From the NCBI GenBank assembly GCA_002813285.1, contig PHTZ01000001.1, positions 4,215,501 through 4,279,500 of the forward strand: a stretch of DNA of 64,000 nt, written 5' to 3'. Position 1 is the stretch's first letter. Each line of letters starts with the position of its first letter. The DNA is from Flavobacteriaceae bacterium MAR_2009_75 (GTDB lineage: Bacteria > Bacteroidota > Bacteroidia > Flavobacteriales > Flavobacteriaceae). The notes beneath the pieces were generated by a model. That model was given only the letters and a program-made list of their open reading frames with translations. It had not been told where the DNA came from and did no database searches. The translations under genes were made by a program, and so were the position numbers. Positions 2,421-28,486 of the stretch are shown here, piece after piece.

Positions 2421-2801
2421 TTATTCACTAAATCCGATGTAAACATAGCCATCAATAATACGAACCGGATAGGTGGCAATAGCACCCAAACTACCATTGA
2501 GATTCTCGCCTGTTTTTAAGGAAAAAGTATTTTTGTGAAGCGGACAGGCAATTTTTGGTTCTAAATTTTCTTCTCCGATCATACCTCGCGATAAAACCAT
2601 TTCCATCTTATGCGGACAAAGATTTTGGCATGCATACCAATTGCCCTCTCTGGTAAAATTGAATACCGCTATCTGCTTTTCTTTATACTTAATACATGCT
2701 CCGCCATTTTTCGGAAACTTGTTGACCAGGGCTGCTTTGTACCAAACCTTGACATCTTCAATCGCTACGGTCTGATATTTTTCTAATGTTGATGAAATCA
2801 T
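2421..2801 (-). CDS. nirD: Nitrite reductase (NADH) small subunit, Rieske type
   Basis: Small subunit of the cytoplasmic assimilatory nitrite reductase, partner of NirB. The 126-residue protein is one Rieske-like domain. Both ligand pairs of a [2Fe-2S] Rieske cluster are present: Cys62-Pro-His64 in NLCPHKMEM and Cys86-Pro-Leu-His89 in ACPLHKNTF. The Escherichia coli type of NirD has the fold without the cluster; this version looks cluster-competent, as in many other bacteria. It starts 51 bp after nirB in the same direction. The pair converts nitrite to ammonium with NADH; siroheme for NirB should come from the cobA gene on the other side of the divergent promoter. Confidence 0.93.
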   Translation of the reverse strand: MISSTLEKYQTVAIEDVKVWYKAALVNKFPKNGGACIKYKEKQIAVFNFTREGNWYACQNLCPHKMEMVLSRGMIGEENLEPKIACPLHKNTFSLKTGENLNGSLGAIATYPVRIIDGYVYIGFSE

Positions 2802-2852: not shown

Positions 2853-5369
2853 CTACACCCACTCTTTGGGCATTTTTTGGTCTCGTAGCGATACAAATTC
2901 AATATTATCATCTTCATCTTCCGAATTTACGAAATGAGTGTACCGTGAGCGGATTTCAGGGTTTTCGACCGCCTCTTTCCATTCACACTTGTAGGTGTCT
3001 ACGTAAGCTTGCATTTCAGCGTCTAATTCAGTAACAATGCCCAAAGAATCGTTTATGACCACATTTTGTAAATAGGTGATGCCTCCTTCAAGCTTCTCTA
3101 ACCAAGCCGCTGTTCGTTGCAAGGGTTGTGCTGTTTTTATGTAAAACATAATGAACCTGTCTACATAGGTCATTGCAGTTTTTTTATCTACTTTTTCTAC
3201 AAGTAGTTCGGCGTGTCTTGGGTTGGCGCCACCGTTACCGCCTACATAAACATTCCACCCACCTTCAACGGCGATGAAGCCAAAATCTTTGCATCGGGCT
3301 TCGGCGCATTCTCTAATACAGCCAGATACACCGCCTTTTAATTTGTGGGGAGACCGAATACCCTTGTAGCGATTTTCAATTTCAATGGCAAAACTTACAC
3401 TTTCATCCATACCATAACGACACCAAGTTGAACCGACGCAGCTCTTTACGGTTCGAAGCGATTTTCCGTAAGCCTGCCCAGTTTCAAAACCTTCGGCTAT
3501 GAGTTCTTCCCAAATTAGAGGGAGTTTATGTAATTTTGCCCCGAAGAGGTCGATGCGCTGTCCTCCTGTAATTTTCGAATAGAGATCATATTTTTGCGCT
3601 ATTCTACCTAAGGCCATTAATTGCTTTGGAGTTATTTCTCCGCCAGCTACGCGGGGTACGACCGAGTATGTGCCGTTTCGTTGAATATTGGCTAGGTAAC
3701 GGTCGTTACTATCTTGTATCGTTTCTTGTTTGTTGGCCGTTTCGTTGTAAATACTTGCAAAAATTCCGGCTGACACCGGTTTACAAATTTCACAGCCATG
3801 ACCAGTACCGACAGTATCTAGCAATTCATCATAACCTTTGATTCCTCTGGTCTTTACAATATCATAGAGTTCTTGTCTTGAATAATTAAAATGTTCGCAA
3901 ATACTGTTTTTCACTGTTTTCCCTAACGATTTTAAGCTTTCGGTAACCAAATCGGTAAGCATGGGCTTACAGCCCCCACAGCCCGTTCCTGCTTTGGTAG
4001 CCTTCGATACCGATTTGACCGTTTCATTGCCGTCATCAAGAACCGAGCAGCATATAGCCCCTTTAGTAACTGCCTCGCATGAGCAAATTACGGCACTATC
4101 GGGTAGATCCATGGCACTGCCAAACGCAGAACCGCCTTCGCCCCGAGCGCCTACTATCAATTCTTCAGCATTGTCGGGCAGGGGCATATTGTTGAGATAC
4201 ATTTGGTGAAGTATGCTATAATCGCCCGCATCACCTACCATAATACCTCCTAGAAGGGTTTTACCGTCATGGCTGACATTTATTCTTTTATAGATACCCT
4301 TGGTTTTATTTTCATATATTATAGAAAGCCCTTTGTCGGCAGGCATATAGGGTACTCCAAAACTGGCTACATCGACACCGATCAATTTGAGTTTTGTAGA
4401 CATGTCGATTTCTTTTTGCATGGCCACGTTGTGATTTTCTAAAATCTGGTTGACCGCAACCTCTGCCATTTCATAACCGGGGGCGACCAGTCCGTATATC
4501 ATCTGGTTGTAAAGCGCAACTTCACCTATCGCAAATATTTTCGGGTCTGAGGTCTGCATTTTATTGTTAACTATGATACCGCCGCGAACTCCCATTTCAA
4601 GATCGCATGTTCTTGCAAGTTCATCTCGAGGCCGAATTCCGGCCGAAACCACGAGCATATCTACTTCTAAGGTATCGTCTTCACCAAAATCCATTCCGGT
4701 GATTACCCCATTGCCCAAGATACGGTTGGTAGCTTTGCCAGTGTGTATTTGAATGCCCATAGACTCTAAAGTCAGCTGAAGAACATTGCTGCTTCTAGCA
4801 TCAAGCTGTCTCGGCATGAGTTTAGGGGCGTATTCGACTACATGGGGTTCAAGACCCATATCCATTACAGCTTTTCCTGCTTCAAGACCTAAAAGACCAC
4901 CACCAAGTACGGCTGCTTTGCCATTCGATTTTGTGCTCTTGATTTTTTCGGCATAAGCAAGCATGCCTTCAAGGTCTTCAATAGTACGGTAGACAAATAC
5001 TCCCTCTTTCTCTACACCATTAATAGGTGGCACAAAGGGCGCAGAACCTGTAGCGAGAACTAAATAATCATATGAATATTCTTTATCGCTTGCCGTGGTA
5101 ACGGTTTGCTTATCTCGATGGATATCGGTTACCCGTTCTTTGATAATTAAATCAATATTGTTATCGGCATACCAATCTAAAGAAGCCAGTTCTAATGCTT
5201 TTGCATCACGATTGGCGAAAAATTCACTGAGGTGTACCCGGTCGTATGCGGCTCGGGGTTCTTCACCAAAAACAACGAGCTTAAAATTTTTACTGTTCTC
5301 GTGGGCTATGAACTTTTCGCAGAATTTATAGCCGACCATGCCGTTACCGACAACAATTATTGTTTTCAT
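2853..5369 (-). CDS. nirB: Nitrite reductase (NADH) large subunit
   Basis: Siroheme-containing large subunit that reduces nitrite to ammonium with NADH, 838 residues, full length. Order of domains: FAD-binding GNGMVG (8-13), NAD-binding LGGGLLGLEAG (about 155), NirB middle region, two BFD-like [2Fe-2S] segments (CSCEAVTKGAICC to GTGCGGCKP, about 430-475, and TGHGCEICKP near 530), the first ferredoxin-like half domain (NGTYSVVPRVAGGEITPKQL, about 575), and the [4Fe-4S]/siroheme ligands KSCVGSTWC (about 640) and GCIRECAEARC (about 683). It heads a leftward operon with nirD, DUF4202 and the sensor kinase. A Bacteroidota-type -7 element and two TACGTA boxes precede it, shared with the divergent cobA. 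Confidence 0.97.
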   Translation of the reverse strand: MKTIIVVGNGMVGYKFCEKFIAHENSKNFKLVVFGEEPRAAYDRVHLSEFFANRDAKALELASLDWYADNNIDLIIKERVTDIHRDKQTVTTASDKEYSYDYLVLATGSAPFVPPINGVEKEGVFVYRTIEDLEGMLAYAEKIKSTKSNGKAAVLGGGLLGLEAGKAVMDMGLEPHVVEYAPKLMPRQLDARSSNVLQLTLESMGIQIHTGKATNRILGNGVITGMDFGEDDTLEVDMLVVSAGIRPRDELARTCDLEMGVRGGIIVNNKMQTSDPKIFAIGEVALYNQMIYGLVAPGYEMAEVAVNQILENHNVAMQKEIDMSTKLKLIGVDVASFGVPYMPADKGLSIIYENKTKGIYKRINVSHDGKTLLGGIMVGDAGDYSILHQMYLNNMPLPDNAEELIVGARGEGGSAFGSAMDLPDSAVICSCEAVTKGAICCSVLDDGNETVKSVSKATKAGTGCGGCKPMLTDLVTESLKSLGKTVKNSICEHFNYSRQELYDIVKTRGIKGYDELLDTVGTGHGCEICKPVSAGIFASIYNETANKQETIQDSNDRYLANIQRNGTYSVVPRVAGGEITPKQLMALGRIAQKYDLYSKITGGQRIDLFGAKLHKLPLIWEELIAEGFETGQAYGKSLRTVKSCVGSTWCRYGMDESVSFAIEIENRYKGIRSPHKLKGGVSGCIRECAEARCKDFGFIAVEGGWNVYVGGNGGANPRHAELLVEKVDKKTAMTYVDRFIMFYIKTAQPLQRTAAWLEKLEGGITYLQNVVINDSLGIVTELDAEMQAYVDTYKCEWKEAVENPEIRSRYTHFVNSEDEDDNIEFVSLRDQKMPKEWV

Positions 5370-11593: not shown

Positions 11594-11634
11594 GATCTGA
11601 TTTAGAAATTTCACCAACGATTATAACCCAATTT

Positions 11635-12735
11635 ATGAACATGAGCGACTATCGATCAAATGCAGCTTTAAAAACAGTTATTCTATTTGTACTGTCATTC
11701 TTTAGTACAGGAGCAATATTTTCTCAAGAAATGAACCCCAACTTGGCGAAAAAGTTGGTATTGGTGTCTGAGCACGAAGGCCCGGTCATAGAACCCGACC
11801 ATCGTGATGTTCTGGGCACCAATAATCAAACAGGTTTTGAAACAGGGCAGGTGGTGAAAATTGAAGATACCTACCATATGTTCGTAAATGAAATGTTTTT
11901 CCGTTCTCATCGGGATCTTCGTATTTCGTATTGGACCAGTTCTGATGCCTTAAACTGGAAGCGGCAAAGCACTGTGGTAGAGAGTATACCAGGTCGCTCC
12001 CCATTCAATCCGAGATCGGAAGTATGGGTGACCGGTGTAGAGTTTAATACAAAAGAAAACGCTTGGAACATTTTTTATGTAGCCTATAGAGGTGGCGATA
12101 AGTCTAAAAGAGAACTACCGGGCAGTGACTATCAAGGGCGAATTTGGCGTGCCAAATCTGTCTTTCAAGGAGTCGAAGGCATCGCAGGCCCTTATGCAGA
12201 TATGGGTATTGTGCTACAACCCGATGAAGATTCTCAAGAGTGGGAGGGGCAACAAGCGGTGGCAACTTTTAATCCATATAGAGTGGGAGAAAATTGGTAT
12301 GCCTTCTATGACGGGCATAACTATATTCCTAAAGGCCCTTGGCCGGTGGGCTTGGCCAAAGCGCCCAGCCTAGAGGGACCATGGGAGAGATTACCCGAAG
12401 GGGTGAACCCTTTGCCAATTGCCAAAGAATTTATCGAAAACCCACAGGTCACCGAACTAAAAGACGGAGGATATTTGGCTGTATTCGATTCTTTAGGGGA
12501 TCAAGAAATTGCCTATAGTACTTCTGAAGATGGAGTAAAATGGACACCGGAACAACGGGTGAAAATTCAATCGAAAGGTAAAATGTGGGGTGTAAAAGGG
12601 GATCATGCCATGCGCACCCCTTTATGTGCGATAGAAGAAGATAACGGTACTTTTACCGTGATTTATACTTCATTGATGAATTTGAAAGGGAGTAAATTTT
12701 ATGCAGTAGGAAAATGTTCTTTAGCGTGGGAATAG
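11635..12735 (+). CDS. Five-bladed beta-propeller glycosidase-like exported protein
   Basis: About 366 residues with a signal peptide (TVILFVLSFFSTGAIFSQ). The frame extends back to 11551 inside the previous gene, but the ATG at 11635 (or 11641) gives a normal signal peptide, so I use it. Repeats of the kind YHMFVNEMFF, ISYWTSSDALNWKRQST, WNIFYVAYRGG, WYAFYDGHNYI, GYLAVFDSLGD and IAYSTSEDGVKWTPEQ are blade strands of the GH43/GH32/GH117-like fold. Candidate acids include Asp in the opening EPDHRDVLGT and Glu in FIENPQVTEL, but I cannot assign the family. It lies 41 bp after the first GH28 gene, so it probably shares its transcript and substrate. Confidence 0.72.
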   Translation: MNMSDYRSNAALKTVILFVLSFFSTGAIFSQEMNPNLAKKLVLVSEHEGPVIEPDHRDVLGTNNQTGFETGQVVKIEDTYHMFVNEMFFRSHRDLRISYWTSSDALNWKRQSTVVESIPGRSPFNPRSEVWVTGVEFNTKENAWNIFYVAYRGGDKSKRELPGSDYQGRIWRAKSVFQGVEGIAGPYADMGIVLQPDEDSQEWEGQQAVATFNPYRVGENWYAFYDGHNYIPKGPWPVGLAKAPSLEGPWERLPEGVNPLPIAKEFIENPQVTELKDGGYLAVFDSLGDQEIAYSTSEDGVKWTPEQRVKIQSKGKMWGVKGDHAMRTPLCAIEEDNGTFTVIYTSLMNLKGSKFYAVGKCSLAWE

Positions 12736-12864
12736 TTCACTCAGCGGAGTATGGTGGCTATTCATAAAAAATCGAAAATTTTAATAATATATCGTAACTT
12801 TTTTATTGCTGCCAAACATAAAGTTATATCTTGTAACTCTTTTTGAACCTTCAATTACTTTTTC

Positions 12865-14286
12865 ATGAGAACACTGGTTTTTATTATTCTTTTCCATTCA
12901 TTTAATCTTCTTTTTGCGCAATCGATTGCTAAAGACCGAGTTATTGTTTTAACTGATATAGAGGCCGATCCCGATGATACACAATCTTTGGTTCGTCTGT
13001 TTCTTTACGCCAATGAAATAGAGATAAAAGGCTTGGTAGCTACTACTTCATGTTGGTTACAATCATCGATACATCCAGAATCCATAGAGAAAATTATCGA
13101 AGCATATGGTAAAGTACAACCCAATTTAACGAAACATGCCGAGGGTTTTCCTTCTGAAAAAGACCTTATGGCATTGGTTAAGAGCGGTCTCCCAAAATAT
13201 GGTATGACCGGAGTTGGTAAGGGAATGGACTCAGAGGGTTCCGATTGGATAATCGCCGAGCTTGAAAAAGAAGATGATAAACCTTTGTGGATTTCTGTTT
13301 GGGGAGGAGTGAATACTCTTGCTCAGGCATTGCATACGATAAGGGCAACCAAATCGGCCCGAGAAGTCAAAAAAATGGTTTCTAAACTACGAGTCTATAC
13401 TATATCTGACCAAGATGATAGTGGAATATGGATCCGTGACAATTTTCCCGATCTTTTCTATATTGTGACCCCTGGTGATGATTATGGGTCTGCCACTTGG
13501 ACGGGTATAAACACTGTGGTCAAAGGCATAGACAATACCACCATAAGTAACCCTTGGCTTGCGGAACATATACAGCAAGGGCATGGTCCGCTTGGGGCTA
13601 TCTATCCTGACGTGGCTTGGGGAGTTGAGGGAGATACGCCAGCCTTCCTATCGCTTATACCTAATGGGCTCAATGTTTCTGAGCATCCCGAATGGGGTGG
13701 TTGGGGTGGTCGCTATGAGCTGTATAAGCCTGATTTCTCAAAAACAAAAGAAGGTGGCTCGATTGTAGAAATCGCACCGGAAACGCGTCCGATATGGACA
13801 AATGCCACCGATAGTCTAGTCCGATATCTACCCAAAATGTACGGTAGAACGGTTCAATACGACAGTATTTCTCATCAAAGTGATAAAGCTAGTTTATGGC
13901 GTTGGCGTGATGATATTCAGAATGATTTCGCTGCGCGGATGGATTGGTGTACCCAAACCTATGATGAGGCCAATCATCCACCGGTCGTTGCCCTGACCCA
14001 TGAGGATAGTATTACGGTCAAAGGGGGAAAAGGTTTTACTTTAGATGCCTTTGAGAGTACAGACCCGGATGGTGACAACCTGAGCTTTTTGTGGTACAAT
14101 TACCCAGAAGCAGGCACTTACAAAAAACTAATTAAGGTTAACGGTGCTGAAAATGCACATCAGGCTTATTTTACCGCACCTAAAGTAAAGAAGAAACAAA
14201 CGGCACATTTTATTGTAAAAGTTTCCGATAAAGGCACACCGCAATTGAGCCGATATAAAAGGGTAATTGTCACTGTAACTCCTTAA
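12865..14286 (+). CDS. Sde182-type protein with nucleoside-hydrolase-like domain (DUF1593)
   Basis: Exported 473-residue protein (signal peptide LVFIILFHSFNLLFAQS). Residues about 25-310 match the DUF1593 nucleoside-hydrolase-like domain: VIVLTDIEADPDDTQSLVRL carries the acidic metal-binding cluster, followed by GLVATTSCWLQ, PLWISVWGGVNTLAQAL and the Gly/Trp-rich segment PEWGGWGGRYEL. The last 90 residues (VVALTHEDSITVKGGKGFTL, STDPDGDNLSFLWYNYPEAG) form an Ig-like domain, the Sde182 C-terminal type. Such proteins are common beside pectin- or cellulose-related genes; a glycosidase or esterase role is suspected but unproved. It follows the propeller gene by 129 bp and precedes a complete GH28. 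Confidence 0.82.
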   Translation: MRTLVFIILFHSFNLLFAQSIAKDRVIVLTDIEADPDDTQSLVRLFLYANEIEIKGLVATTSCWLQSSIHPESIEKIIEAYGKVQPNLTKHAEGFPSEKDLMALVKSGLPKYGMTGVGKGMDSEGSDWIIAELEKEDDKPLWISVWGGVNTLAQALHTIRATKSAREVKKMVSKLRVYTISDQDDSGIWIRDNFPDLFYIVTPGDDYGSATWTGINTVVKGIDNTTISNPWLAEHIQQGHGPLGAIYPDVAWGVEGDTPAFLSLIPNGLNVSEHPEWGGWGGRYELYKPDFSKTKEGGSIVEIAPETRPIWTNATDSLVRYLPKMYGRTVQYDSISHQSDKASLWRWRDDIQNDFAARMDWCTQTYDEANHPPVVALTHEDSITVKGGKGFTLDAFESTDPDGDNLSFLWYNYPEAGTYKKLIKVNGAENAHQAYFTAPKVKKKQTAHFIVKVSDKGTPQLSRYKRVIVTVTP

Positions 14287-14319
14287 TTTTCTTAAATAAA
14301 ACCATTGTGCCAGAGCTTT

Positions 14320-15807
14320 ATGATTAGATTCAGAATATGTATTTTATTTGTTTTAGTGGCCCATTTGGGGTGGGGGCAGTTTAAAACCCCAGCATCCGAA
14401 GAGCCATTCTTGACTAAAGATCAAGTGGGCGCCCATGCTTTACCCACAGAAATAGCCCCAATTCAGGCTCCTTTTGATATGCCCGACTTAAAAAGGCCGA
14501 TGTTCGCTGCCTTCAGTATTGATATTAGTGAAGCTGGAGCACGATCTGGTCAAAAAGTGACCAAAATTATTCAAAAAGCTATAGATAAAGTGAGTCGAAA
14601 AGGTGGTGGTACCGTTGTAGTGCCTTCTGGTAAATGGCATACTTCTCGTATTGAACTGAAAAGCAATGTGAATTTAGAACTTCAAGAAGGTGCCGAGCTT
14701 TTAATCGGGGGGGCTATTGAAGATTATTTGCCTGCGGTATTCACTCGGGTAGAAGGTATCGAAATCATGTCTAGCGGTGGGTTCATTTATGCTCATAAGG
14801 CAGAAAATATCGCGATTACGGGAAAAGGTAAGATTATTGGCCCGGGAGAGGATGCTGCCGTGAGGTCGGCCCCAAGCCCCGAGGGAGTGGTCGAAAATGC
14901 CATTGACCAAAACGCTCCTGTTAAAGAAAGAATTTATGACGGACATAAGGGAAGGTTTTTCTACAAGCCAAAATCGGTATGCTTGGTCGAGTGCAAAAAT
15001 GTTTTAATTGAAGGCATTACAATTGAGAACAGTGTTACTTGGAATGTGACTCCGATTTATTGTGACGGTGTTATAATTAGAGGGATCACTGTCAACTCTG
15101 TGGGTATTCCAACAGGTGACGGAATAGACATCGAATCATCTAGAAACGTATTAATCGAATATGCTACGCTAAATAATGGAGATGATTGTTTTACTATGAA
15201 ATCGGGCCGCGATAAAGATGGTATTCGTGTCAACCGGCCTACCGAAAATATAGTAGTTAGATATTGTTTGTCAGAGGCAGGTCATGGTGCAATTACAACG
15301 GGAAGTGAAACTGCAGGGTGGATTCGGAACGTATATCTGCACGACTGTATTTTTGATGGTACCGATAGGGGTTTTCGTTTTAAAACCCGTCGCCCTAGAG
15401 GTGGTGGGGTAGAGAATATTTACTACGAAAGAGTAAAAATGAATATCAAGCGACATGCTTTGGAGTGGGATTTACTAGGAAGTAGAACTTATGTGGGAGA
15501 ATTGGCAGATCGCTTACCCAAACGTGAGATTACCGAACTTACACCCAGATATCGAAACTTATTTTTTCGCGATGTGGAGATACATACCGAAGAGAATTTT
15601 ATAAAAGCTAAAGGTATACCAGAAGTTCCGTTGACCAATGTTATTATGGAAAACCTAGATGTGACCTCAGGGCAAAATATCTATATGAGCGATGTAAAAG
15701 ACTTTGTAATCAAAAATTCAATAATCCGTAGCAAAGACCAAAACATTGAAATATTAGAAGGCCAAAACGTGAAGTTTGAGAATGTAAATATGATTTATCA
15801 AGAATAA
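14320..15807 (+). CDS. GH28 glycoside hydrolase (polygalacturonase-like), motifs complete
   Basis: Exported beta-helix enzyme of about 495 residues. ATG 14320 gives a clean signal peptide (FRICILFVLVAHLGWGQ); a TTG at 14305 would only add five residues. The GH28 catalytic set is complete: TGDGIDIE (about 265), NNGDDCFTMKSG (about 290), GHGAITTGSE (about 325) and RGFRFKTRR (about 350, the RIK-type motif). Family members hydrolyse polygalacturonate or rhamnogalacturonan, or other uronic acid-rich chains; an additional N-terminal segment with EEPFLTKDQVGAHALP is present. It lies 33 bp after the Sde182-type gene and is the last gene of the rightward block; it converges with the serine hydrolase gene 10 bp away. 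Confidence 0.9.
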   Translation: MIRFRICILFVLVAHLGWGQFKTPASEEPFLTKDQVGAHALPTEIAPIQAPFDMPDLKRPMFAAFSIDISEAGARSGQKVTKIIQKAIDKVSRKGGGTVVVPSGKWHTSRIELKSNVNLELQEGAELLIGGAIEDYLPAVFTRVEGIEIMSSGGFIYAHKAENIAITGKGKIIGPGEDAAVRSAPSPEGVVENAIDQNAPVKERIYDGHKGRFFYKPKSVCLVECKNVLIEGITIENSVTWNVTPIYCDGVIIRGITVNSVGIPTGDGIDIESSRNVLIEYATLNNGDDCFTMKSGRDKDGIRVNRPTENIVVRYCLSEAGHGAITTGSETAGWIRNVYLHDCIFDGTDRGFRFKTRRPRGGGVENIYYERVKMNIKRHALEWDLLGSRTYVGELADRLPKREITELTPRYRNLFFRDVEIHTEENFIKAKGIPEVPLTNVIMENLDVTSGQNIYMSDVKDFVIKNSIIRSKDQNIEILEGQNVKFENVNMIYQE

Positions 15808-15817
15808 CTGTCAGACC

Positions 15818-17125
15818 CTATAGGGTAGAATTGTTTTCTGATTTGTTGGCGGCTTGAGCAAGTTTTTCTGTAGTTGGTCCGTAAATACCTTTGTAAATTT
15901 CGTATAAGTCAGGAATTACCGTTCTGGCAATTCTCGAATTGCTGTTCAAAAGTACGCAAATACCCAAGTCTGCTTCTGGGTACATTGCAATTTCATTTCT
16001 ATAATTATTTACGCTTCCGCCATGGTGCCAAATAGTTTTCTCCAACGGGTTTCCATCTTCGGTGAACTTATGAATTCTCCAACCGAATCCGTAGAACGAC
16101 TTTTCATGACCTGGCCATTTGTGGTAATATTTATGACTTCCAGGAATTTCGATAAATGGGGTAAAGGCTTCCGATATTGCCTTTTCATCCAATACTTCCG
16201 AATTATGTCCTAATAAAAAACGCATCCATTTGCCCATATCGTGGGCGCTGGCATTGATGCCTCCGGCCGCGATAGCATTGTAATAGTTATCACTGAGTTT
16301 AAGGGTTTGCCAACCGTTACGTCTCTTAGAATGGGGTAGGGCCACGTTAATGGTCTCGTTCAAGGTTTTATAATCCATTGAAGTACTACACATGCCTAGA
16401 GGTTTGAAAAATCGATTGTTCAGTGATGCACTTATTTCACTACCGGTAGCTTTTTGCATAACTTCACTACAGAGTGCAAAAATTGCATTTTGATAACTGT
16501 ACATGGTGCCAGGTTTGCTGATTGGTACCACCTCTTTAAAACGAGATGCAATAGTTTCCATGGGCAGGCCAGCTTCAACGAGATTGGTAAAACTATGATA
16601 CGGGGTGCCCGAAGTATGTGAAAGAATATTGGCCAAGGTAATCTCAGAAGTATTTCGTGCGTCACCTAATTGAAACTGCGGCAAATAGTCAATAATGCGA
16701 TCTTTCCATTCCAAATACCCATCATTTTTCAAATCGGCAGCTAAGATACCCGCGAAACCTTTTGAGAGAGAACCTAATCTAAATACAGTCTCCCCATCCA
16801 CAGTATAATTGTTACTATAATTTCGTCTTCCGAAACCTTCGGCCAGAACAATACTATCAGATTGAACGATGCTTACACCGGCACCAACGATATCTCCTAA
16901 GGCTATTGCTCTTTTAAAATAGGTGGTTAAAGCCGACTTTAGCTTTTGCTTGTCAGACGAGTACTTTTTAGAATCAATTCTGTTTTCCGCGATTTGTTGA
17001 GGTGCTTTTAGAGCGACTTTTTCAACGGTAGGTGATGATGGTACCGAATTTTTGGTGCTAGAAGTTGCAATTATTAGGGTTAAGGTCAAAAGCGCAAATA
17101 CCGCTAGGAATTTAATTGTTCGCAT
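15818..17125 (-). CDS. Serine hydrolase of the beta-lactamase/class C type
   Basis: Exported 435-residue protein of the beta-lactamase/transpeptidase-like (PF00144) family. The N-terminus FLAVFALLTLTLIIATSS is a signal peptide or anchor. The catalytic SxxK is SLSK (Ser119-Lys122) in VFRLGSLSKGFAG, the Tyr motif is YSYQNAIF, and the third-box equivalent is HHGGSVNNYRNE. Family members act as D-amino-acid peptidases, esterases or beta-lactamases; nothing seen identifies the substrate. It is oriented against the carbohydrate genes on both sides, so an enzyme acting on esterified sugars is possible but speculative. Confidence 0.85.
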   Translation of the reverse strand: MRTIKFLAVFALLTLTLIIATSSTKNSVPSSPTVEKVALKAPQQIAENRIDSKKYSSDKQKLKSALTTYFKRAIALGDIVGAGVSIVQSDSIVLAEGFGRRNYSNNYTVDGETVFRLGSLSKGFAGILAADLKNDGYLEWKDRIIDYLPQFQLGDARNTSEITLANILSHTSGTPYHSFTNLVEAGLPMETIASRFKEVVPISKPGTMYSYQNAIFALCSEVMQKATGSEISASLNNRFFKPLGMCSTSMDYKTLNETINVALPHSKRRNGWQTLKLSDNYYNAIAAGGINASAHDMGKWMRFLLGHNSEVLDEKAISEAFTPFIEIPGSHKYYHKWPGHEKSFYGFGWRIHKFTEDGNPLEKTIWHHGGSVNNYRNEIAMYPEADLGICVLLNSNSRIARTVIPDLYEIYKGIYGPTTEKLAQAANKSENNSTL

Positions 17126-17332
17126 GTGAAAATTCAGAGATTAGCTTTTCGGTTAACAGGTATGAATATAGGATGAAATACTTAAATAACGGATGAATTA
17201 CATTATTTCTTATACAATTCGGTATTTTTTATTGTTAATTTATGGTACTGCCATTTTTTTATATGATTTCATGCCAACTTCTTAAAGTTAAATGGGATAT
17301 ATTTTAATAATTGAAATCTAATAACAGATCAT

Positions 17333-18682
17333 ATGCACGATCGGATATTTTATCATATCTATCCCCTTGGGCTGTTAGGTGCACCGCATATAAACAACTT
17401 TGATTCTGAGCCTAAAGAGCTACTCTGTGAATTAGATTATTGGTTGAACCATCTTTCAGAGCTAGGCTGCAACGCGCTTTACCTAGGTCCTGTTTTTGAA
17501 TCGACCTCACATGGTTATGATACTGCAGACTATTATAGTGTAGACCGGCGTTTGGGCACTAACGAGTCTTTGGTCGATATTATTGAAAAGGCCCATAAAC
17601 TTGGCGTCAAAGTCGTCTTTGATGCGGTTTTTAATCATGTGGGGCGAGATTTCTGGGCATTTAAAGATTTACAGCGAAATGGTAAAATATCACTCTATAA
17701 AAATTGGTTTTCTAATATTGACTTTACCAAGAAGAGCCCCTATGGCGATTCTTTTTCCTATAGTTCTTGGCGGGGGCATTATCAGTTAGTTGAACTGAAC
17801 CTAGAAAATGATGAGGTAAAAAACCACCTCTTCGGAGCCGTAAGGTTTTGGGTAGAAAAATTTAAAATTGATGGTCTAAGACTTGATACCGCTGATGTTT
17901 TAGATTTTAAATTTATGCGTGAATTATCGAAATATTGTAGGCAACTAAAACCGGATTTTTGGCTTATGGGTGAGGTGGTTCAGGGCGACTACCGCAAGTG
18001 GATAGGTAGAGATATGCTAGATTCGGTGACCAACTACGAGTGCCACGCACCGCTCTACCAGAGTTTGAATGATGAAGATTTTAATAGTATCAGTACCATA
18101 TTAAATCGACAATATGGCTTTGCTGGTAACTATAAAAAGCTTCAATTATATTCGTTTGTAGATAATCACGACGTCAATAGGGCGGCTAGTAATCTTTATA
18201 AACCAGAACACTTGTACCCTCTATATCTGTTACTATTTACGTTGCCCGGTATTCCTGCCCTATACTATGGTAGCGAGTGGGGTTTTGAAGGCGAAAAGAA
18301 AGAGGGTAGCGATACCGAGCTACGCCCACATGTTGTTTATGGCAATAGATTTTCCTGGGCTAAACACCCAGATCTATTTAATTCGTTAAAACGATTTATA
18401 GAACTACGGAAAACCATATATGCACTAGCGGAAGGTGATTTCGAAGAGGTTTTAGTCCAAAAAAAGATTTATGCCTTTTTACGATATCAAAAAGATGAAA
18501 TGGTTTTAGTGATTGTAAATTCTGACAAGTGCTTTAAAACGGTTCACCTGAAAGCCACTCAAATTAGAGTTGGTAATTATAGAGATGTATTGAACGATAT
18601 CAATTATTTATGCGCAGAAGAGAAAGGCATGAAATTGGTAGTATCATCAAATTGGGGCGCTATACTTCGATATTTAGGTTGA
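17333..18682 (+). CDS. GH13 alpha-amylase family glycosidase (cytoplasmic)
   Basis: TIM-barrel enzyme of GH13, 449 residues, no signal peptide, so probably cytoplasmic. Conserved regions are complete: VVFDAVFNHVG (region I), GLRLDTADVL with the nucleophile Asp (about residue 184), FWLMGEVVQG with the acid Glu (about 212), and FVDNHDVNR with the third acid (about 283). PALYYGSEWG precedes the C-terminal beta domain. The short length and lack of extra domains fit a maltodextrin glucosidase or neopullulanase-like enzyme handling imported oligosaccharides. It has its own 207-bp upstream region and is followed by the nitrate reductase promoter; it is not obviously connected to either neighbour. 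Confidence 0.88.
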   Translation: MHDRIFYHIYPLGLLGAPHINNFDSEPKELLCELDYWLNHLSELGCNALYLGPVFESTSHGYDTADYYSVDRRLGTNESLVDIIEKAHKLGVKVVFDAVFNHVGRDFWAFKDLQRNGKISLYKNWFSNIDFTKKSPYGDSFSYSSWRGHYQLVELNLENDEVKNHLFGAVRFWVEKFKIDGLRLDTADVLDFKFMRELSKYCRQLKPDFWLMGEVVQGDYRKWIGRDMLDSVTNYECHAPLYQSLNDEDFNSISTILNRQYGFAGNYKKLQLYSFVDNHDVNRAASNLYKPEHLYPLYLLLFTLPGIPALYYGSEWGFEGEKKEGSDTELRPHVVYGNRFSWAKHPDLFNSLKRFIELRKTIYALAEGDFEEVLVQKKIYAFLRYQKDEMVLVIVNSDKCFKTVHLKATQIRVGNYRDVLNDINYLCAEEKGMKLVVSSNWGAILRYLG

Positions 18683-18791: not shown

Positions 18792-18824
18792 AAATAGGTT
18801 GCTTCTAACCCCAAGTTTTTGAAC

Positions 18825-21800
18825 ATGCAAAAAAATAATGTACATAAAACCATTTGTTCGTATTGCGGAGTGGGTTGTGGTATTGACGTTTCGGTTGATA
18901 ATAAGGGCACTATTAAAGTCGAAGGTGATCAATCATACCCCGTTAATAAGGGAATGTTATGTTCGAAAGGTAAGAACCTAAACTATGTAGCACAAGATGT
19001 TTCTGACCGTATCTTATACCCTGAGATGCGTTGGAGCCGTAACCATCCCAAGCAACGGGTTTCATGGGACACCGCTTTTGAAAGGGCTTCGGCCGTTTTT
19101 CAGAGTATTATAGATAGGCATGGCCCAAATAGCGTGGGGTTTTACGTATCGGGTCAGTGTCTCACCGAAGAGTATTATTTGGTTAATAAGTTGGCAAAGG
19201 GCTTTATCGGCACGAATAACATTGATACCAATTCTAGGCTCTGTATGAGCTCGGCGGTTGTGGGTTATAAAAAAATGCTTGGTGAAGATTCGGTTCCTAT
19301 TTCGTATGAAGATATCGAGCTTTCCGACTGTTTTCTAATTGCTGGGGCGAATCCCGCCTGGTGTCATCCGATTCTTTTTCGTAGGATCGAAAAACACAAA
19401 GAAGAGAATCCTGATGTTAAAATCATTGTAGTAGATCCTCGAAAAACACAAACTTGTACAATAGCTGACCTTCATCTACAAATTTTACCGGGTACCGATG
19501 TGATTCTTTTCAATGCTATGGCCAGATGGTTGATAGAGAAGAAAAAGATCGATAAAAAATTTATAAAGAAATACACCAGTAATTTCGAGGCTTGTAAAGA
19601 GAGTGCTTTTCAGCTTACCCTTCAAAAGGCAGCTGATCTTTGCGGTATAACAGTTGAAGAAATTCGTAAAGCCGCGGCCTATATTGGTAATGCCAAAGCA
19701 TTTCTATCGATGTGGACCATGGGCCTTAACCAAAGCGTTATTGGCGTAAGCAAGAATTTGGCGCTTTTGAATCTTTCATTACTTACTGGCCAAATCGGAA
19801 AACCCGGTTCTGGCCCATTTTCGCTTACCGGACAACCAAATGCGATGGGCGGTCGTGAAGTAGGGGGTATGGCAAGTCTTTTAGCGGCACATAAAGACTT
19901 AGGTAACCCGAGACATCGTGAAGAAGTTGCTGATTTTTGGGGAGGCAAGGCTATTTCTGGTGAAGCGGGTTACACAGCCACGGAGATGTTCGATGCATTG
20001 GAAAGTGGCGAAATGAAGGCTGTTTGGATCATCTGTACCAACCCCATAGTGAGTTTGCCCAATGCAAATAAAGCTGAAAGAGCGCTTAAGAATGCCAGTT
20101 TCGTAGTCGTACAAGATATTTCGCATAATTCTGAAACGACCAAGTTCGCCGACTTACTTTTGCCTGCTGCAGGTTGGCTTGAAAAAGAAGGTACAATGAC
20201 CAATTCTGAGCGTAGAATAAGTTATCTCCCAAAGGTGATCGATGCCCCTGGGGAAGCACTTCCCGATGTTGAAATTTTATGGCGTTTTGCCCAAAAAATG
20301 AAATACACCGGCTTCGATTATAAAAATGCAAGTGAAGTTTATGATGAACATTGTTTATTGACCAAAGGGACCAATATCGATATTTCGGGCTTGTCTTACC
20401 ACCGCCTGCAGACCGAGGGCAGTTTTCAATGGCCTGTACCCAGTGTCGACCACAAGGGTACACCAAGGTTATTTACAGACTTACAGTTTTACACAAATGA
20501 TGAAAGATCACATTTTAATGCACCTCCGAAGCTATACAATCAATCGGAACAGATCTCTACAGATTATCCTCTGATATTGAATACCGGCCGAGTGCGAGAT
20601 CAATGGCACACCCGCACCAAGACCGGTAAGGTTAAGCGTTTACTTACACATATTCCTGAACCTTTTTTAGAAATGAATAAGGTCGATGCTTATTTAAGAG
20701 GGCTAAAAGAAGGTGATGTGGCCGTAATTAAAAGTAAAAGGGGGCAGGTTCAAGTTAAGGTCAAGGTAAATTTTGATATTCGTGAACGAGTGGTCTTTTT
20801 ACCGATGCATTGGGGCAAAGTACTTAATAATGATTTCGGTAGGGCGAATAATATTACCAATAATCTTATTGATCCCATATCAAAAGAACCTGATTTTAAA
20901 TACTGTGCGGTACAGGTAGAAAAATATGTGAAACCGAAACAAAAAGTATTGATTATTGGTGCCGGAGCGGCAGCCTATCGTTTCGTTCAGACCTATCGGG
21001 CAAAGAATAAAGTAGATGAACTTCATGTTTTTTCGAGGGAAAGCGACCCATTTTATAATCGTGTTCTTTTACCGGAATACGTTAGCGATGAATTGACTTG
21101 GGAAGACTTGGAGAAACTGAAAAAAGGAGAGGTAAAAAAGTTAGGCATCCATTTACATTCGGGTCTAGGTATAACTCAAATTGATAAAGTAAACCAGAAA
21201 GTTACCGATGATTCGGGTAATGACCACAAATATGATATTTTGGTAATGGCGACCGGTAGTCGGGCTTTTGTGCCAAGTGATGTTCAGATTAATCTACCCG
21301 GCAGGTTTACTATGCGTGAACGGGGTGATGCCGACAAGCTTAGAAAATATTTACAAGAAACAGGTTTGCCAGCTGAAGAACAGCATGTTGTAATTGTGGG
21401 GGGCGGACTTTTAGGTTTAGAGCTTGCCGCTGCCCTAAAGCGGAGAAATGTTAACATAAGTATTATACAGCGGGCCCCAAGACTTATGGAAAGGCAACTA
21501 GATCGAGTGGCGAGCCGCTTGTTGGCAGAAGATGTATCAGAAAGGGGCATCAAAATCTATTTCGATAATGAAGTGAGCACCGTTTTTGAAGAAAAAGGGC
21601 GTAAAAATATCCTATCAGTAACTCTTAAAACCGGTCGCAGCATAAAATGTAATGCTATTGTTTATGCCATTGGTACTCGACCAAATATCGAATTGGCCAA
21701 ATTCTCAGATATAAGGACCAGTAGGGGAGTAATCGTAAATGAATATTTGCAGACCAGTGAACCCAATATTTTTGCCCTAGGCGAGATTGCTGAATTCAAG

Positions 21801-22358
21801 AATTCGCTTTTTGGTATTACTTCTGCGGCCGAACAACAAGCAGATATCGCTGCCAAATATATAATGGGTGACTACGCAAGTATGTACAATGGTTCGGTTT
21901 TGATGAATATTCTGAAGTTTGAAGATTTGGATCTTTGTAGTTTGGGTATGGTCAATGCCCCGACGAACGATTCTAGTTATGAAGAGATTATTTTTATGGA
22001 TGTAAGCAAGCGTTACTATAAAAAGTGTATCGTTAAGGATGATACGTTGCTTGGGGCGATTCTAATGGGTGATAAAAATGAATTTGCCGAGTTCAAGAGA
22101 TTGATTGAAGAACGAATAGAGCTGTCTGAGAAGAGGGAAGAACTGCTACGCGGAAACAGCACGTCGGTACCGTTAAAAGGCAAATTGGTATGCTCTTGCA
22201 GCCAAGTGGGAGAGGGCAACATTATAGACGTAATCAATTCGGGATGCAAAGAGTTTTCTAAGCTCTGTGCACAGACCGGTGCTGGTCTCGGGTGCGGTAG
22301 TTGCAAACCTGAAGTACAAGAAATATTGAATACACAGTTACAAGCGGCCACGATATAG
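18825..22358 (+). CDS. Assimilatory nitrate reductase fused to a NirB-like FAD/NAD and BFD module
   Basis: A 1177-residue cytoplasmic molybdoenzyme predicted to reduce nitrate to nitrite. ATG 18825 is chosen; a TTG at 18819 adds two residues. The N-terminal [4Fe-4S] site is CSYCGVGC (Cys11, 14, 18) with the fourth Cys in GMLCSKGK. The molybdopterin domain follows (NSRLCMSSAVVGYKK, with a candidate Mo-ligand Cys; FLIAGANPAWCHPILF), then the dinucleotide-binding domain NTGRVRDQWHTRTKTG (about 580-690). Residues about 705-1020 are a NirB-type FAD/NAD oxidoreductase (VLIIGAGAAAYRF, VVIVGGGLLGLELAAAL), and the end is a BFD [2Fe-2S] domain (LVCSCSQVGEG, AGLGCGSCKPE). Fusion of catalytic and diaphorase parts should allow NAD(P)H use without a separate NasB subunit. 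The rubredoxin protein follows by 48 bp. The gene would be called narB or nasC by different authors. Confidence 0.93.
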   Translation: MQKNNVHKTICSYCGVGCGIDVSVDNKGTIKVEGDQSYPVNKGMLCSKGKNLNYVAQDVSDRILYPEMRWSRNHPKQRVSWDTAFERASAVFQSIIDRHGPNSVGFYVSGQCLTEEYYLVNKLAKGFIGTNNIDTNSRLCMSSAVVGYKKMLGEDSVPISYEDIELSDCFLIAGANPAWCHPILFRRIEKHKEENPDVKIIVVDPRKTQTCTIADLHLQILPGTDVILFNAMARWLIEKKKIDKKFIKKYTSNFEACKESAFQLTLQKAADLCGITVEEIRKAAAYIGNAKAFLSMWTMGLNQSVIGVSKNLALLNLSLLTGQIGKPGSGPFSLTGQPNAMGGREVGGMASLLAAHKDLGNPRHREEVADFWGGKAISGEAGYTATEMFDALESGEMKAVWIICTNPIVSLPNANKAERALKNASFVVVQDISHNSETTKFADLLLPAAGWLEKEGTMTNSERRISYLPKVIDAPGEALPDVEILWRFAQKMKYTGFDYKNASEVYDEHCLLTKGTNIDISGLSYHRLQTEGSFQWPVPSVDHKGTPRLFTDLQFYTNDERSHFNAPPKLYNQSEQISTDYPLILNTGRVRDQWHTRTKTGKVKRLLTHIPEPFLEMNKVDAYLRGLKEGDVAVIKSKRGQVQVKVKVNFDIRERVVFLPMHWGKVLNNDFGRANNITNNLIDPISKEPDFKYCAVQVEKYVKPKQKVLIIGAGAAAYRFVQTYRAKNKVDELHVFSRESDPFYNRVLLPEYVSDELTWEDLEKLKKGEVKKLGIHLHSGLGITQIDKVNQKVTDDSGNDHKYDILVMATGSRAFVPSDVQINLPGRFTMRERGDADKLRKYLQETGLPAEEQHVVIVGGGLLGLELAAALKRRNVNISIIQRAPRLMERQLDRVASRLLAEDVSERGIKIYFDNEVSTVFEEKGRKNILSVTLKTGRSIKCNAIVYAIGTRPNIELAKFSDIRTSRGVIVNEYLQTSEPNIFALGEIAEFKNSLFGITSAAEQQADIAAKYIMGDYASMYNGSVLMNILKFEDLDLCSLGMVNAPTNDSSYEEIIFMDVSKRYYKKCIVKDDTLLGAILMGDKNEFAEFKRLIEERIELSEKREELLRGNSTSVPLKGKLVCSCSQVGEGNIIDVINSGCKEFSKLCAQTGAGLGCGSCKPEVQEILNTQLQAATI

Positions 22359-22406: not shown

Positions 22407-23849
22407 ATGAATGACAACTTACATAGAATAATGCTTAAGGGTGGGGTTACCTCCCCAGGGGAGCTCAAAGATTGTATTGCCATGCTTGAAGCTGTTGGCC
22501 TCAAAGAAGTGTTTTTCGGCTCAAGACAAGATTTATTGTTTCCCTTGAAAGGTGAAGATGATAGGTTACTCGATAATATTTCTAAGTTCAATGTAGAAAT
22601 TGAATCGAACAGAAGCTTTCAAAATATAGTTTCATCTTATGTGTCGGCCGACATTTTTGAGATGACCCACTGGTTAAAAGGTTCGACCTATCTCTATATT
22701 CTAGAGGGCTTCGATTACAGTCCTAAACTAAAAATTAATATCACCGACCCAAAACAAAGATTGGTGCCTTTGTTTAATGGTAACTTGAATTTTATAGCTT
22801 CTGAAAATGAAGATTACTGGTACCTCAACCTAAAATTGCCGCATTGGGAAAATTCGGCCTATTATCCGGTTTTAATTTATAGTTGGGATATTAATACGTT
22901 CGCAAAAACTATTGAAGATATTTATGAGGATGTAGCGGATGTCGAAGAATTGGCGTTTATTTTGAATAAAAAGTTAGATGCCAATAGTCGAACGATGGAT
23001 AAGGAACTTGAAATACCTTACATAAAATTTCCTTATTACGAAGGCATGAACAGAATGGGCCTTGACCAATATTGGTTGGGCCTATATTGGCGAAACAATA
23101 ACTACGACCTTGAATTTTTGAAAGAGCTCTGTGGTTTTTGTCTTGATAATAGTATTGGCAAGATATGTATCACTCCGTGGAAATCATTTATCATCAAGGG
23201 CATAAAAAAGTCTGCCCGCCCCGAGCTTGAGCGTTTTCTCGGGCAGAGAGGTATTAATGTTCGGCATTCTCAGCTAGAAATGAATTGGCACTTACCGGTC
23301 GATGATAGCGAAGCTCTTGAGCTTAAGAAGTTCTTGGTTCGAAGTTTTGATCAAAATGATATAAGTACCTATGGTTTAACTTTCGGAATCAGCAACGATG
23401 TGGGCAAAAGATCACATTTCGCCTCTGTTTTGATAGAAAAGAACGCACCACCTGCGATTGTTAAAGATTTTGAGGTTAGGCCCACATACAACGTTCTACA
23501 CTTTGAAAATTTTGACCCTAATATTCAAAGGTATGAAGCCTTTGCCCATGACGTTGATAAAATTGAACTACCAGGTTTATTGATGGAGCTTAGTAAAAAA
23601 TATTTTAATCAATTGGGTTCTGAAAAAATTGCTTCGGCCTCTAAACCGATAGTCACTAAAGATGAACAGACGGTTCGTGCAATCTATCAATGCTCTTTGT
23701 GTCTCACTGTTTATGATGACCAATACGGCGATGCCGCCGCAAACATTTCGGCCGGAACCCCATTCGCCGAACTACCGGAAACATATACCTGCCCCGTGTG
23801 TGATGCGGTGAAATCAGAATTCAAAAAAACCGAATTGGTGATAGTGTAA
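22407..23849 (+). CDS. Rubredoxin-domain protein on a sulfite/nitrite-reductase-like fold lacking cluster ligands
   Basis: A 480-residue soluble protein. The N-terminus HRIMLKGGVTSPGELKDC is clearly related to the ferredoxin-like half domain of nitrite/sulfite reductases, and ICITPWKSFIIKGI (about 250) looks like the second half domain. However the C-x5-C and C-x3-C ligands for [4Fe-4S]-siroheme are absent, so this cannot be a normal siroheme reductase. The last 55 residues are a rubredoxin: YQCSLCLTVYDD and TYTCPVCDAVKSEF, with the spacer GDAAANISAGTPFAELP. Two usual Gly after the Cys pairs are replaced by Leu and Asp. Co-directional, 48 bp after the nitrate reductase. I infer electron delivery to, or assembly of, the nitrate or nitrite reductase; the reaction is not known to me. 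Confidence 0.83.
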   Translation: MNDNLHRIMLKGGVTSPGELKDCIAMLEAVGLKEVFFGSRQDLLFPLKGEDDRLLDNISKFNVEIESNRSFQNIVSSYVSADIFEMTHWLKGSTYLYILEGFDYSPKLKINITDPKQRLVPLFNGNLNFIASENEDYWYLNLKLPHWENSAYYPVLIYSWDINTFAKTIEDIYEDVADVEELAFILNKKLDANSRTMDKELEIPYIKFPYYEGMNRMGLDQYWLGLYWRNNNYDLEFLKELCGFCLDNSIGKICITPWKSFIIKGIKKSARPELERFLGQRGINVRHSQLEMNWHLPVDDSEALELKKFLVRSFDQNDISTYGLTFGISNDVGKRSHFASVLIEKNAPPAIVKDFEVRPTYNVLHFENFDPNIQRYEAFAHDVDKIELPGLLMELSKKYFNQLGSEKIASASKPIVTKDEQTVRAIYQCSLCLTVYDDQYGDAAANISAGTPFAELPETYTCPVCDAVKSEFKKTELVIV

Positions 23850-23851
23850 AC

Positions 23852-23884
23852 AAAAAAAACGGTTCCGTATTCGGAACCGCTTTT
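23852..23884. terminator. Bidirectional terminator between convergent genes
   Basis: Stem CGGTTCC (23860-23866) with GGAACCG (23873-23879), loop GTATTC, with a run of A before and TTTT after. It lies between the rubredoxin gene and the convergent MFS gene. Confidence 0.85.
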
Positions 23885-23910
23885 CATTTATTTTTAAAAT
23901 TTCTTCTGCC

Positions 23911-26909: not shown

Positions 26910-28486
26910 ATGTTTTCGATAAAATCAATAACGTCCCTGCTTATGGCGGGGACACTTTTTTGGTCATGTAAAGAATCACCAAAAACTGAAAGTAACGTTC
27001 AATCGAACACTAAACCAAATATCATTTACATTCTTGCCGATGATTTGGGATACGCAGAAATCGGCGCCTTTGGACAAGAAAAAATAGAGACCCCGAACAT
27101 TGATGCTTTGGCCAAATCTGGAATGATGTTTACCCAGCACTATAGTAGCGCCCCGGTTTGCGCTCCGGCGAGATATATGTTGCTAACCGGAAAACATGCG
27201 GGTCATGCCTATATTAGAAGTAATTCGGAATGGAAAGAACGAGGTGAGGTATGGAATTATAAGGCCATGGCTAAAGACTCTACTTTAGAAGGTCAAGGCC
27301 CAATGCCGAAATCAACAGTTACCATGGCCCACCGTTTAAAAGAAGCAGGCTATACTACAGGAATGGTGGGTAAATGGGGCTTAGGTGCTCCACATACCCA
27401 TTCTTTACCAACTACCATGGGTTTTGATTTTTTCTATGGATTCAATTGTCAAAGACAGGCTCATACGTATTACCCATTGCATCTTTATAAAAATGAAAAT
27501 AGGGTGCCTTTGGCCAATGACACGATCGCGCCCAATACCAAGCTGCCTGAAGGGGCAGACCCTGACGATATTGAAAGTTACGCTGATTTTAATTTAACAG
27601 ATTATGCACCGGACTTAATGTTCGAAGAACTCACAAATTTTGTAGAAAGAAGTAATGAAAAACCCTTCTTTTTATATTGGGCGACACCGATACCGCATGT
27701 AGCGCTTCAAGCTCCGCAGCGATGGGTAGATTATTACATCGAGAAATTTGGCGCGGAAGAACCTTATCTAGGTGATAAAGGATATTTTCCTCATAAAAAT
27801 CCACATGCGGCCTATGCCGCCATGGTATCTTATTTTGATGAAAACATAGGTAAATTGGTTGAGCAGTTGAAAGACGAAGGTCTTTATGAGAACACGTTGA
27901 TTGTATTTACTTCAGACAATGGCCCAAGCTACGCAGGGGTGCAGACCCTGAATTTTTTGAGAGTGCCAAACCTTTTGAAGGCACCCATGGTAGGGGCAAG
28001 GGGTATTTATATGAAGGGGGTATTCGTGTGCCGATGATCGCTTCATGGCCAAAGCATATTCAGGCCGGTACCGAAAGTGATCTACCATCTGCTCATTACG
28101 ACATGCTTGCAACTTTTTCTGATGTAGCCGGTTACGAAATACCTGATGATACCGATGGCATAAGTATGCTGCCTACCATGATATCTGAGGGAGAGCAAGT
28201 TAAACATGATTTTATGTATTGGGAGTTTCCCAGTTATGGAGGTCAAATAGCGATTCGTTTAGGTGATTGGAAAGTGGTTCGGCAAAACCTAACCAATAAC
28301 AAACCGGCAACGCTAGAATTGTATGATTTGAAAAAGGACCCGACAGAACAGAACAATGTTGCTGGGCAACATCCTGAAATTATTGAGAAGGCAATTGAAA
28401 TTTTTAAAAAGGAAAGAGAAACGCCAGAATTAGAACATTTTAAAATGCCGGCTATAGAAGGTGGGTTAATTGCCAATAATAAGTAA
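26910..28486 (+). pseudogene. FGly sulfatase (lipoprotein) interrupted by a one-base frameshift
   Basis: Type I sulfatase that would remove sulfate esters from a glycan in the periplasm. Lipoprotein signal MAGTLFWSC (Cys20); metal-binding Asp44-Asp45 in IYILADDLGYAE; active-site CAPAR (Cys84) to be converted to formylglycine; LLTGKHAGH; FVGRWGLG-like VGKWGLGAPH. The reading frame derails after TSDNGPSYAG: one base is missing in the GGGG at 27936-27939. Adding one G restores PEFFESAKPFEGTHGRGKGY, then LYEGGIRVPMIASWPK in the second frame, which continues to 28486. The repaired protein has 525 residues, a normal sulfatase length. As read, the product would end at 28037. A homopolymer indel is typical of sequencing error, so the gene may be intact in the organism. 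Confidence 0.88.

Follow-up and report, generated by a model that had tools for sequence, protein, structure and literature searches.

The gene at 22407..23849 (+ strand) of the window, the 64,000-nucleotide stretch of DNA from the marine Flavobacteriaceae bacterium MAR_2009_75 that was analysed, encodes a siroheme-reductase fold that has lost its metal ligands and ends in an intact rubredoxin. Because the ligands are lost, the protein carries the sole rubredoxin found in the genome, and the gene lies right behind nasC, the protein is probably an electron-handling partner of nitrate reductase and would itself transfer electrons. A more specific role is predicted here with about even confidence for and against: as a pseudoenzyme, the protein would form a subunit of NasC, the fused NADH nitrate reductase, and relay electrons through its rubredoxin. 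Bacteria differ in the route by which they deliver electrons to assimilatory nitrate reductases. The present case would be a siroheme-reductase-fold protein kept without a metal centre as the partner of a nitrate reductase and equipped with a dedicated rubredoxin, in genomes that yielded no second rubredoxin. Its parts belong to known families; their combination seems not to be visible in open-access titles and the first part of abstracts, a search of which found nothing on this protein or its domain combination.

A siroheme-reductase fold without metal ligands

The protein consists of 480 amino acids, and its frame is open from an ATG start (ORF list). All positions within the gene given below are on the + strand. 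Pfam places a rubredoxin domain (PF00301, E 1.5e-17) at residues 427-472 (23685..23822). Its C-x2-C ... C-x2-C iron site is complete (Cys429/432/462/465), as a first-pass annotation of the sequence had proposed. A flavorubredoxin model (NF003954) matched residues 415-475 only, Pfam matched no FAD or BFD domain in the protein, and a PHROGs search of it returned no match. The part preceding the rubredoxin is called the body here. The first-pass annotation had described two half-domains of the nitrite/sulfite reductase type in it, and both hold up by different routes. The second, residues 233-278 (23103..23240), is a Pfam match to NIR_SIR_ferr (PF03460, E 3e-6, 27.3 bits against a curated cut-off of 24). 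The first, ferredoxin-like, covers residues ~5-66 (GGVTSPGELKDC; 22419..22604) and gave no match in the Pfam scan of the window protein; a profile-profile comparison pairs it with the N-terminal half-domain of siroheme reductases, and the fold matches of both predicted models include it. Fold and alignment also delimit a first NIR_SIR-like half at residues ~70-200 (22614..23006), and alignment together with a marginal IspG fold match delimits a second at residues ~290-405 (23274..23621). Relatives of the protein were found down to 31% identity. Among 28 diverse members, PF03460 was matched in all 28 (E<=0.1) and the rubredoxin in 25, and NIR_SIR PF01077 was listed for none at E<=0.1.

The AlphaFold2 models from which the fold was read have moderate confidence, with a mean pLDDT of 67.8 (whole protein) and 63.8 (body alone). 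At E<=0.001, all 31 Foldseek matches of the body model were siroheme sulfite or nitrite reductases, the best being NirA 1zj8 (E 1.9e-11). VIA-align superposed the body model on 1zj8 over 257 residues (Z 14.4, rmsd 4.8) and gave Z 15.1 over 266 residues (rmsd 5.3) for the whole-protein model. Thus, within the confidence of the models, the siroheme-reductase fold named in the first-pass annotation is borne out. The aligned ranges of the VIA-align rows mostly stop at residues 284-317. The last part of the body was matched marginally to the C-terminal domain of IspG (Z 8.1, 94 residues, rmsd 3.5). Membership of the body in the siroheme-reductase superfamily is supported by the fold and the half-domain matches. 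A search of the sequence profile of the body against solved structures returned no siroheme reductase, only two unrelated matches (E 0.16 and 0.52).

Which siroheme reductase does the body resemble most? In hhalign comparisons, the body profile aligned over 396 columns with a mixed set of five SiR hemoprotein and NirA sequences (Prob 94.5, E 8e-8), over 265 columns with eight SiR-type rows (Prob 90.8), over 74 columns with seven NirA rows in which two genes are entered twice (Prob 23.6), over 40 columns with ten CysI sequences of ~700 aa (Prob 15.9), and over 35 columns with NirB (Prob 9.8). By sequence profile, then, the body is closer to NirA and SiR hemoprotein than to NirB, with an outcome that depends on the reference set. 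As the aligned length varies with that set, the body can be assigned to the superfamily and not to one exact ancestor within it. Descent from NirB was considered and rejected on the 35 columns versus 396, and the same comparison weighs against the earlier suggestion that the protein mimics NirB; both judgements carry the same dependence on the reference set. The body and NirB have the half-domain family in common, and the neighbouring NasC bears a NirB-like FAD/BFD half, but the body fails to align along the siroheme unit of NirB. NirB combines FAD, BFD and a single siroheme module in one chain, a layout that the protein lacks, and a full NirB is encoded separately. With NirA (1zj8) and the SiR hemoprotein CysI (1aop, 6c3m) the body shares the fold, the half-domains and the R-Q of the T-x-R-Q motif, but it lacks the cluster cysteines, has the loop deleted, has lost three of the four substrate-binding basic positions and has gained a rubredoxin. 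Weak NCBIfam matches among the 28 members were to CobG (15), NirA (9) and SiR hemoprotein (7). The weak matches to CobG (precorrin-3B synthase) come from its NCBIfam equivalog model and reach E 8.3e-6 at best, and the window protein itself has no CobG match at E<=1. A likeness in layout is to flavorubredoxin NorV with its NorW-type reductase, where a C-terminal rubredoxin also adjoins a reductase with a Rubredoxin_C domain; however, the present protein has no match to a flavodiiron core, and its partner is a nitrate reductase.

The fate of the metal ligands was read from an alignment of the window protein with a siroheme reductase that a related genome (L200) encodes. The window protein has a deletion where the C-x5-C pair would lie and has L324 and I328 at the two cysteine positions of C-x3-C, both changes lying in the second NIR_SIR-like half. 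The absence of both cysteine pairs, as the first-pass annotation had it, is therefore confirmed, and as the ligand test for a siroheme reductase failed, the protein should not be called one. Other siroheme-site motifs are partly kept. The R-Q of T-x-R-Q remains as R40-Q41 (22524..22529), the Arg of N-R-N has become Q72, the Arg of P-R-K has become P106, and the Lys-containing segment is without a counterpart. If the substrate-binding Arg and Lys residues sit in the motifs in which we take them to sit, one Arg is kept (R40), one is replaced (P106) and the Lys stretch has no counterpart. A literature search on siroheme-site residue names found nothing. In siroheme nitrite and sulfite reductases, two Arg and two Lys bind the substrate (PMC10229431).

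A second set of residues is conserved in the body. C242 and C245 (C242-x2-C245, 23130..23141) are invariant in all 27 distinct diverse sequences (in set A2, L106 and L162 are the same gene) and in 60 rows of alignment A1, and they are the sole columns with Cys in all 27 bodies. They sit in a helix of the second half-domain in the predicted model. Together with R40, Q41, K259 and E291, they are invariant in 28/28 bodies. In total, 35 positions are invariant over these 28 bodies, whose identity goes down to 30% and which include two orphans without a rubredoxin. Neither C242-x2-C245 nor R40-Q41 figured in the first-pass annotation.

Gene order and co-inheritance with NasC and NirB

The gene just upstream, nasC (18819..22358, + strand), encodes 1179 aa, in which a NasC-type Mo enzyme (residues ~1-700) is fused to a NirB-like half made up of FAD, a rubredoxin-reductase-type C-terminal domain (Rubredoxin_C, PF18267; 21903..22115, + strand) and a BFD-like [2Fe-2S] domain (22185..22331, + strand). 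The loci of relatives were surveyed in the best 80 of 200 relatives found, with flanks of at most 8 kb on each side, some of them ended by contig ends. In all 80, the FAD half of NasC is encoded directly upstream of the gene, in the same orientation. The gap between the two has a median of 11 nt and is at most 60 nt in 78 of these 80 loci, five of which overlap. The NasA-FAD frame is unbroken in 79 of them, the contig of the remaining one (L024) beginning inside the gene. A consensus scan of the window reported no terminator-like hairpin between nasC and the ORF and one just 3' of the ORF (23854..23885, reported on both strands); the region has 6 such sites against a mean of 5.2 in shuffles. 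Full-length NirB (2853..5369, - strand) and NirD (2421..2801, - strand) are encoded ~17 kb from the gene.

Co-occurrence was counted in 395 Bacteroidota genomes, with the siroheme part of NirB counted at E<=1e-25. The protein matched 123 genomes, 94 of which were left out of the body count; among the matches listed, down to an E of about 4e-6, theirs begin at residue 399 or later, in the rubredoxin. The body was thus found in 29 genomes, fused NasC in 33, and both in 28. The co-occurrence with narB (NasC) proposed in the first-pass annotation is accordingly present in 28/29 body genomes as well as in 80/80 loci (best 80 of 200). The siroheme unit of NirB occurs in the same 28 genomes and, at this threshold, in no other of the 395. 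In 23 further genomes with only weaker NasA-like matches, the body is absent. The five genomes with fused NasC and no body (G389, G203, G241, G333, G355) also gave no NirB match. Four of them carry a NirA-sized siroheme reductase a few kb from nasC (PF01077 check), and the fifth, G241, carries one in its nasC cluster. In a quick tree, these five form one clade, clade A, which is sister to the 28 (SH-aLRT 95 and 93; G355 is on a long branch). The presence and absence of the body therefore reflect a single gain or loss followed by inheritance, and a single event means that the pattern alone cannot separate a role with NasC from a role with NirB. The four Cys columns of BFD are kept in all five body-less NasC proteins, so the internal chain of NasC may be able to do without a partner.

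One clade A cluster (L150, 17-8772) contains a NarK-like gene, a NirA-type reductase, a 206-aa frame, an FAD/NAD flavoprotein, a globin and fused NasC, an arrangement similar to narK-bjgb-flp-nasC of Bradyrhizobium (PMC4724949).

On plasmids, the body is found in 4 of 72,556 records, all from Bacteroidota, and these are the four with a close fused NasC. One more record, actinobacterial, matches the greater part of the NasC fusion (31% identity) and lacks the body. Among three plasmid records examined, the gene carries an annotation in two, each time only 'rubredoxin'. As two annotated relatives bear no other name, this label may conceal a conserved component of nitrate assimilation across many Bacteroidota.

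Retention of the rubredoxin follows that of NasC. Of 118 body-containing locus rows, among which some genomes occur more than once (twice each), 115 have all four rubredoxin cysteines, including L244, which was missed by the four-Cys motif scan; L099 has a rubredoxin match alone, without a body. The remaining three rows belong to the two NasC-less orphans, one of which is entered twice. PF00301 gave one match in each of 6 of the 13 genomes searched, always inside the body-rubredoxin protein, and no match in the other 7. In G365 and G549 the rubredoxin is shortened with its four Cys kept, and no PF00301 match reached the threshold. Two loci (L160 10468-11847 and L165 9992-11440) have a rubredoxin that is strongly shortened between the two C-x2-C motifs and keeps all four Cys.

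The two orphan bodies (G308 and G567; L154 273-1553 and L243 12469-13740) are 74% identical to each other and are under purifying selection. Neither the NasC fusion nor NirB was found in either genome, and their PF01077 matches fall within one SiR-type gene each (in G567, both in one 583-codon frame). The G308 body starts ~270 bases from a contig end, where nasC may have been lost; in G567, 12 kb of upstream sequence is without nasC. Synteny around the two showed nothing in common beyond the gene itself and short repeats. G568, a genus-mate, has the body, the rubredoxin, NasC and a NirB-sized gene. In this genus, therefore, the species without the nitrate reductase also lack the rubredoxin and yet keep the body.

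Evolutionary distances give a hint that the protein follows NasC more than NirB in most, not all, subsets; they are only a hint because genome pairs are not independent. Over 28 genomes, the distances of the protein correlate with those of the NasC FAD half at 0.905, NasA at 0.894 and NirB at 0.745, and the partial correlations are 0.39, 0.27 and -0.33, respectively. The NasC halves stay ahead of NirB in 1000/1000 subsamples of 20 genomes and in 14 hand-picked genomes (FAD half 0.714, NasA 0.658, NirB 0.434). Without family f1 (13 genomes), the advantage of NasC is gone (NasA 0.736, FAD half 0.710, NirB 0.727).

The Rubredoxin_C scores also differ between groups. They are 77.7 (window), 75.6, 84.4, 75.9 and 82.8 bits in five of the 28 NasC proteins with the partner, 51.6, 58.3, 60.5 and 71.9 bits in four of the five without it, and 32.4, 41.0 and 38.8 bits in three of the 28 NirB proteins, window NirB having 32.4 versus 77.7 for window NasC. 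This separation is suggestive, although confounded by clade. C121 of NasC is kept in 26/28 with the partner and absent in 5/5 without it.

Proposed electron handling and alternative roles

How might the protein handle electrons? In the predicted mechanism, the siroheme-reductase fold, having lost its siroheme and [4Fe-4S] ligands, would be kept as a docking scaffold on NasC. NADH would be the donor, and the C-terminal rubredoxin would take electrons from the FAD half of NasC with its rubredoxin-reductase-type C-terminal domain. Their simplest destination would be the Mo/[4Fe-4S] half of NasC, NirB being a less likely one, and the protein would be needed for growth on nitrate. Suggestive of electron carriage are the higher Rubredoxin_C score of NasC than of NirB, the finding of no other rubredoxin in the genome, and the distances nearer NasC. 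In Bradyrhizobium japonicum, a separate redox protein of the nas operon, Flp, is needed for growth on nitrate and not on nitrite (PMC4724949). The likeness lies in being such a separate redox protein; Flp is an FAD/NAD(P)H protein, whereas here that kind of module is fused to NasC. The strongest objection to a NasC subunit comes from clade A, whose NasC presumably functions with no partner. Moreover, NasC already has a BFD [2Fe-2S] relay, the presence of the protein tracks NirB (28/28) at least as well as NasC, and the two orphan bodies persist in the absence of both NasC and rubredoxin. A plain scaffold is also questioned, in that the invariant C242-x2-C245 and the other invariant polar residues exceed what a scaffold needs.

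The strongest alternative, although an unlikely one, is an adaptor between NasC and NirBD that shares electrons or passes nitrite between the enzymes. It would explain why NirB occurs in exactly the genomes with body and fused NasC and in none of the five without the body, which carry the NirA-sized reductase near nasC, but this pattern amounts to one evolutionary event. NirB is, besides, in none of the 80 loci (best 80 of 200; flanks of at most 8 kb, some shortened by contig ends), and in the full set the distances follow it less than NasC. The pairing of the gene with nasC would equally suit a maturation factor that binds apo-NasC and aids insertion of the Mo cofactor or a cluster, with the rubredoxin giving electrons or iron. 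Such a factor would fit the divergence of the protein, which is faster than that of NasC (mean distance 0.97; NasA 0.44, FAD half 0.57), and the 35 invariant residues, three of which (R40, Q41 and N73) match siroheme-site motifs in the alignment. It is nevertheless improbable: chaperone families were unmatched except for one weak TorD match in 1/28 members, and clade A has NasC without the protein.

The same conserved residues have been read in two further ways. C242-x2-C245 and its companions may form a new rubredoxin-fed enzyme site, acting for example on NO or hydroxylamine from NasC. The invariance of C242, C245, R40, Q41, K259 and E291 even in the orphans favours such a redox enzyme, as do the globin gene in the clade A cluster L150 (the only genome in which globins were looked for) and the capacity of Bradyrhizobium NasC to generate NO (PMC4724949). 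However, the body is without a known cofactor site and has just two invariant Cys, and the orphans have lost the rubredoxin, so that an enzyme of this kind is quite unlikely. More broadly, the siroheme site may have been rebuilt from these six residues into a new redox or ligand site, working with the rubredoxin beside NasC and without it in the orphans; this is a doubtful reading but, if true, would mean that a dead siroheme reductase had given rise to a new kind of redox protein. The loss of all cluster ligands and most substrate-binding basic residues could be taken to mark the relic of a nitrite or sulfite reductase in decay. That is very improbable, as purifying selection contradicts it (dN/dS ~0.06 between the window protein and its nearest relative, L004, and ~0.09 between the orphans, for which dS is saturated), and the body frame is open across 118 locus rows.

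Other genes of the window

Several further features of the window were observed. Polysaccharide genes, including those for two GH28 proteins, occupy 10238-18682, separating nasC from a narK/regulator block, and look like an insertion into the nitrate cluster. A DUF4202 protein (1746-2336, - strand), encoded beside nirD and present too in a Hymenobacter plasmid cluster, adds a second uncharacterised gene to the nitrate cluster. The siroheme biosynthesis gene cobA (5498 to ~6270, + strand) has a single in-frame stop after codon 184, beyond which CobA-like sequence continues in frame. Two overlapping ORFs at 26910-28486 (+ strand) resemble, by eye, one sulfatase split by a frameshift.
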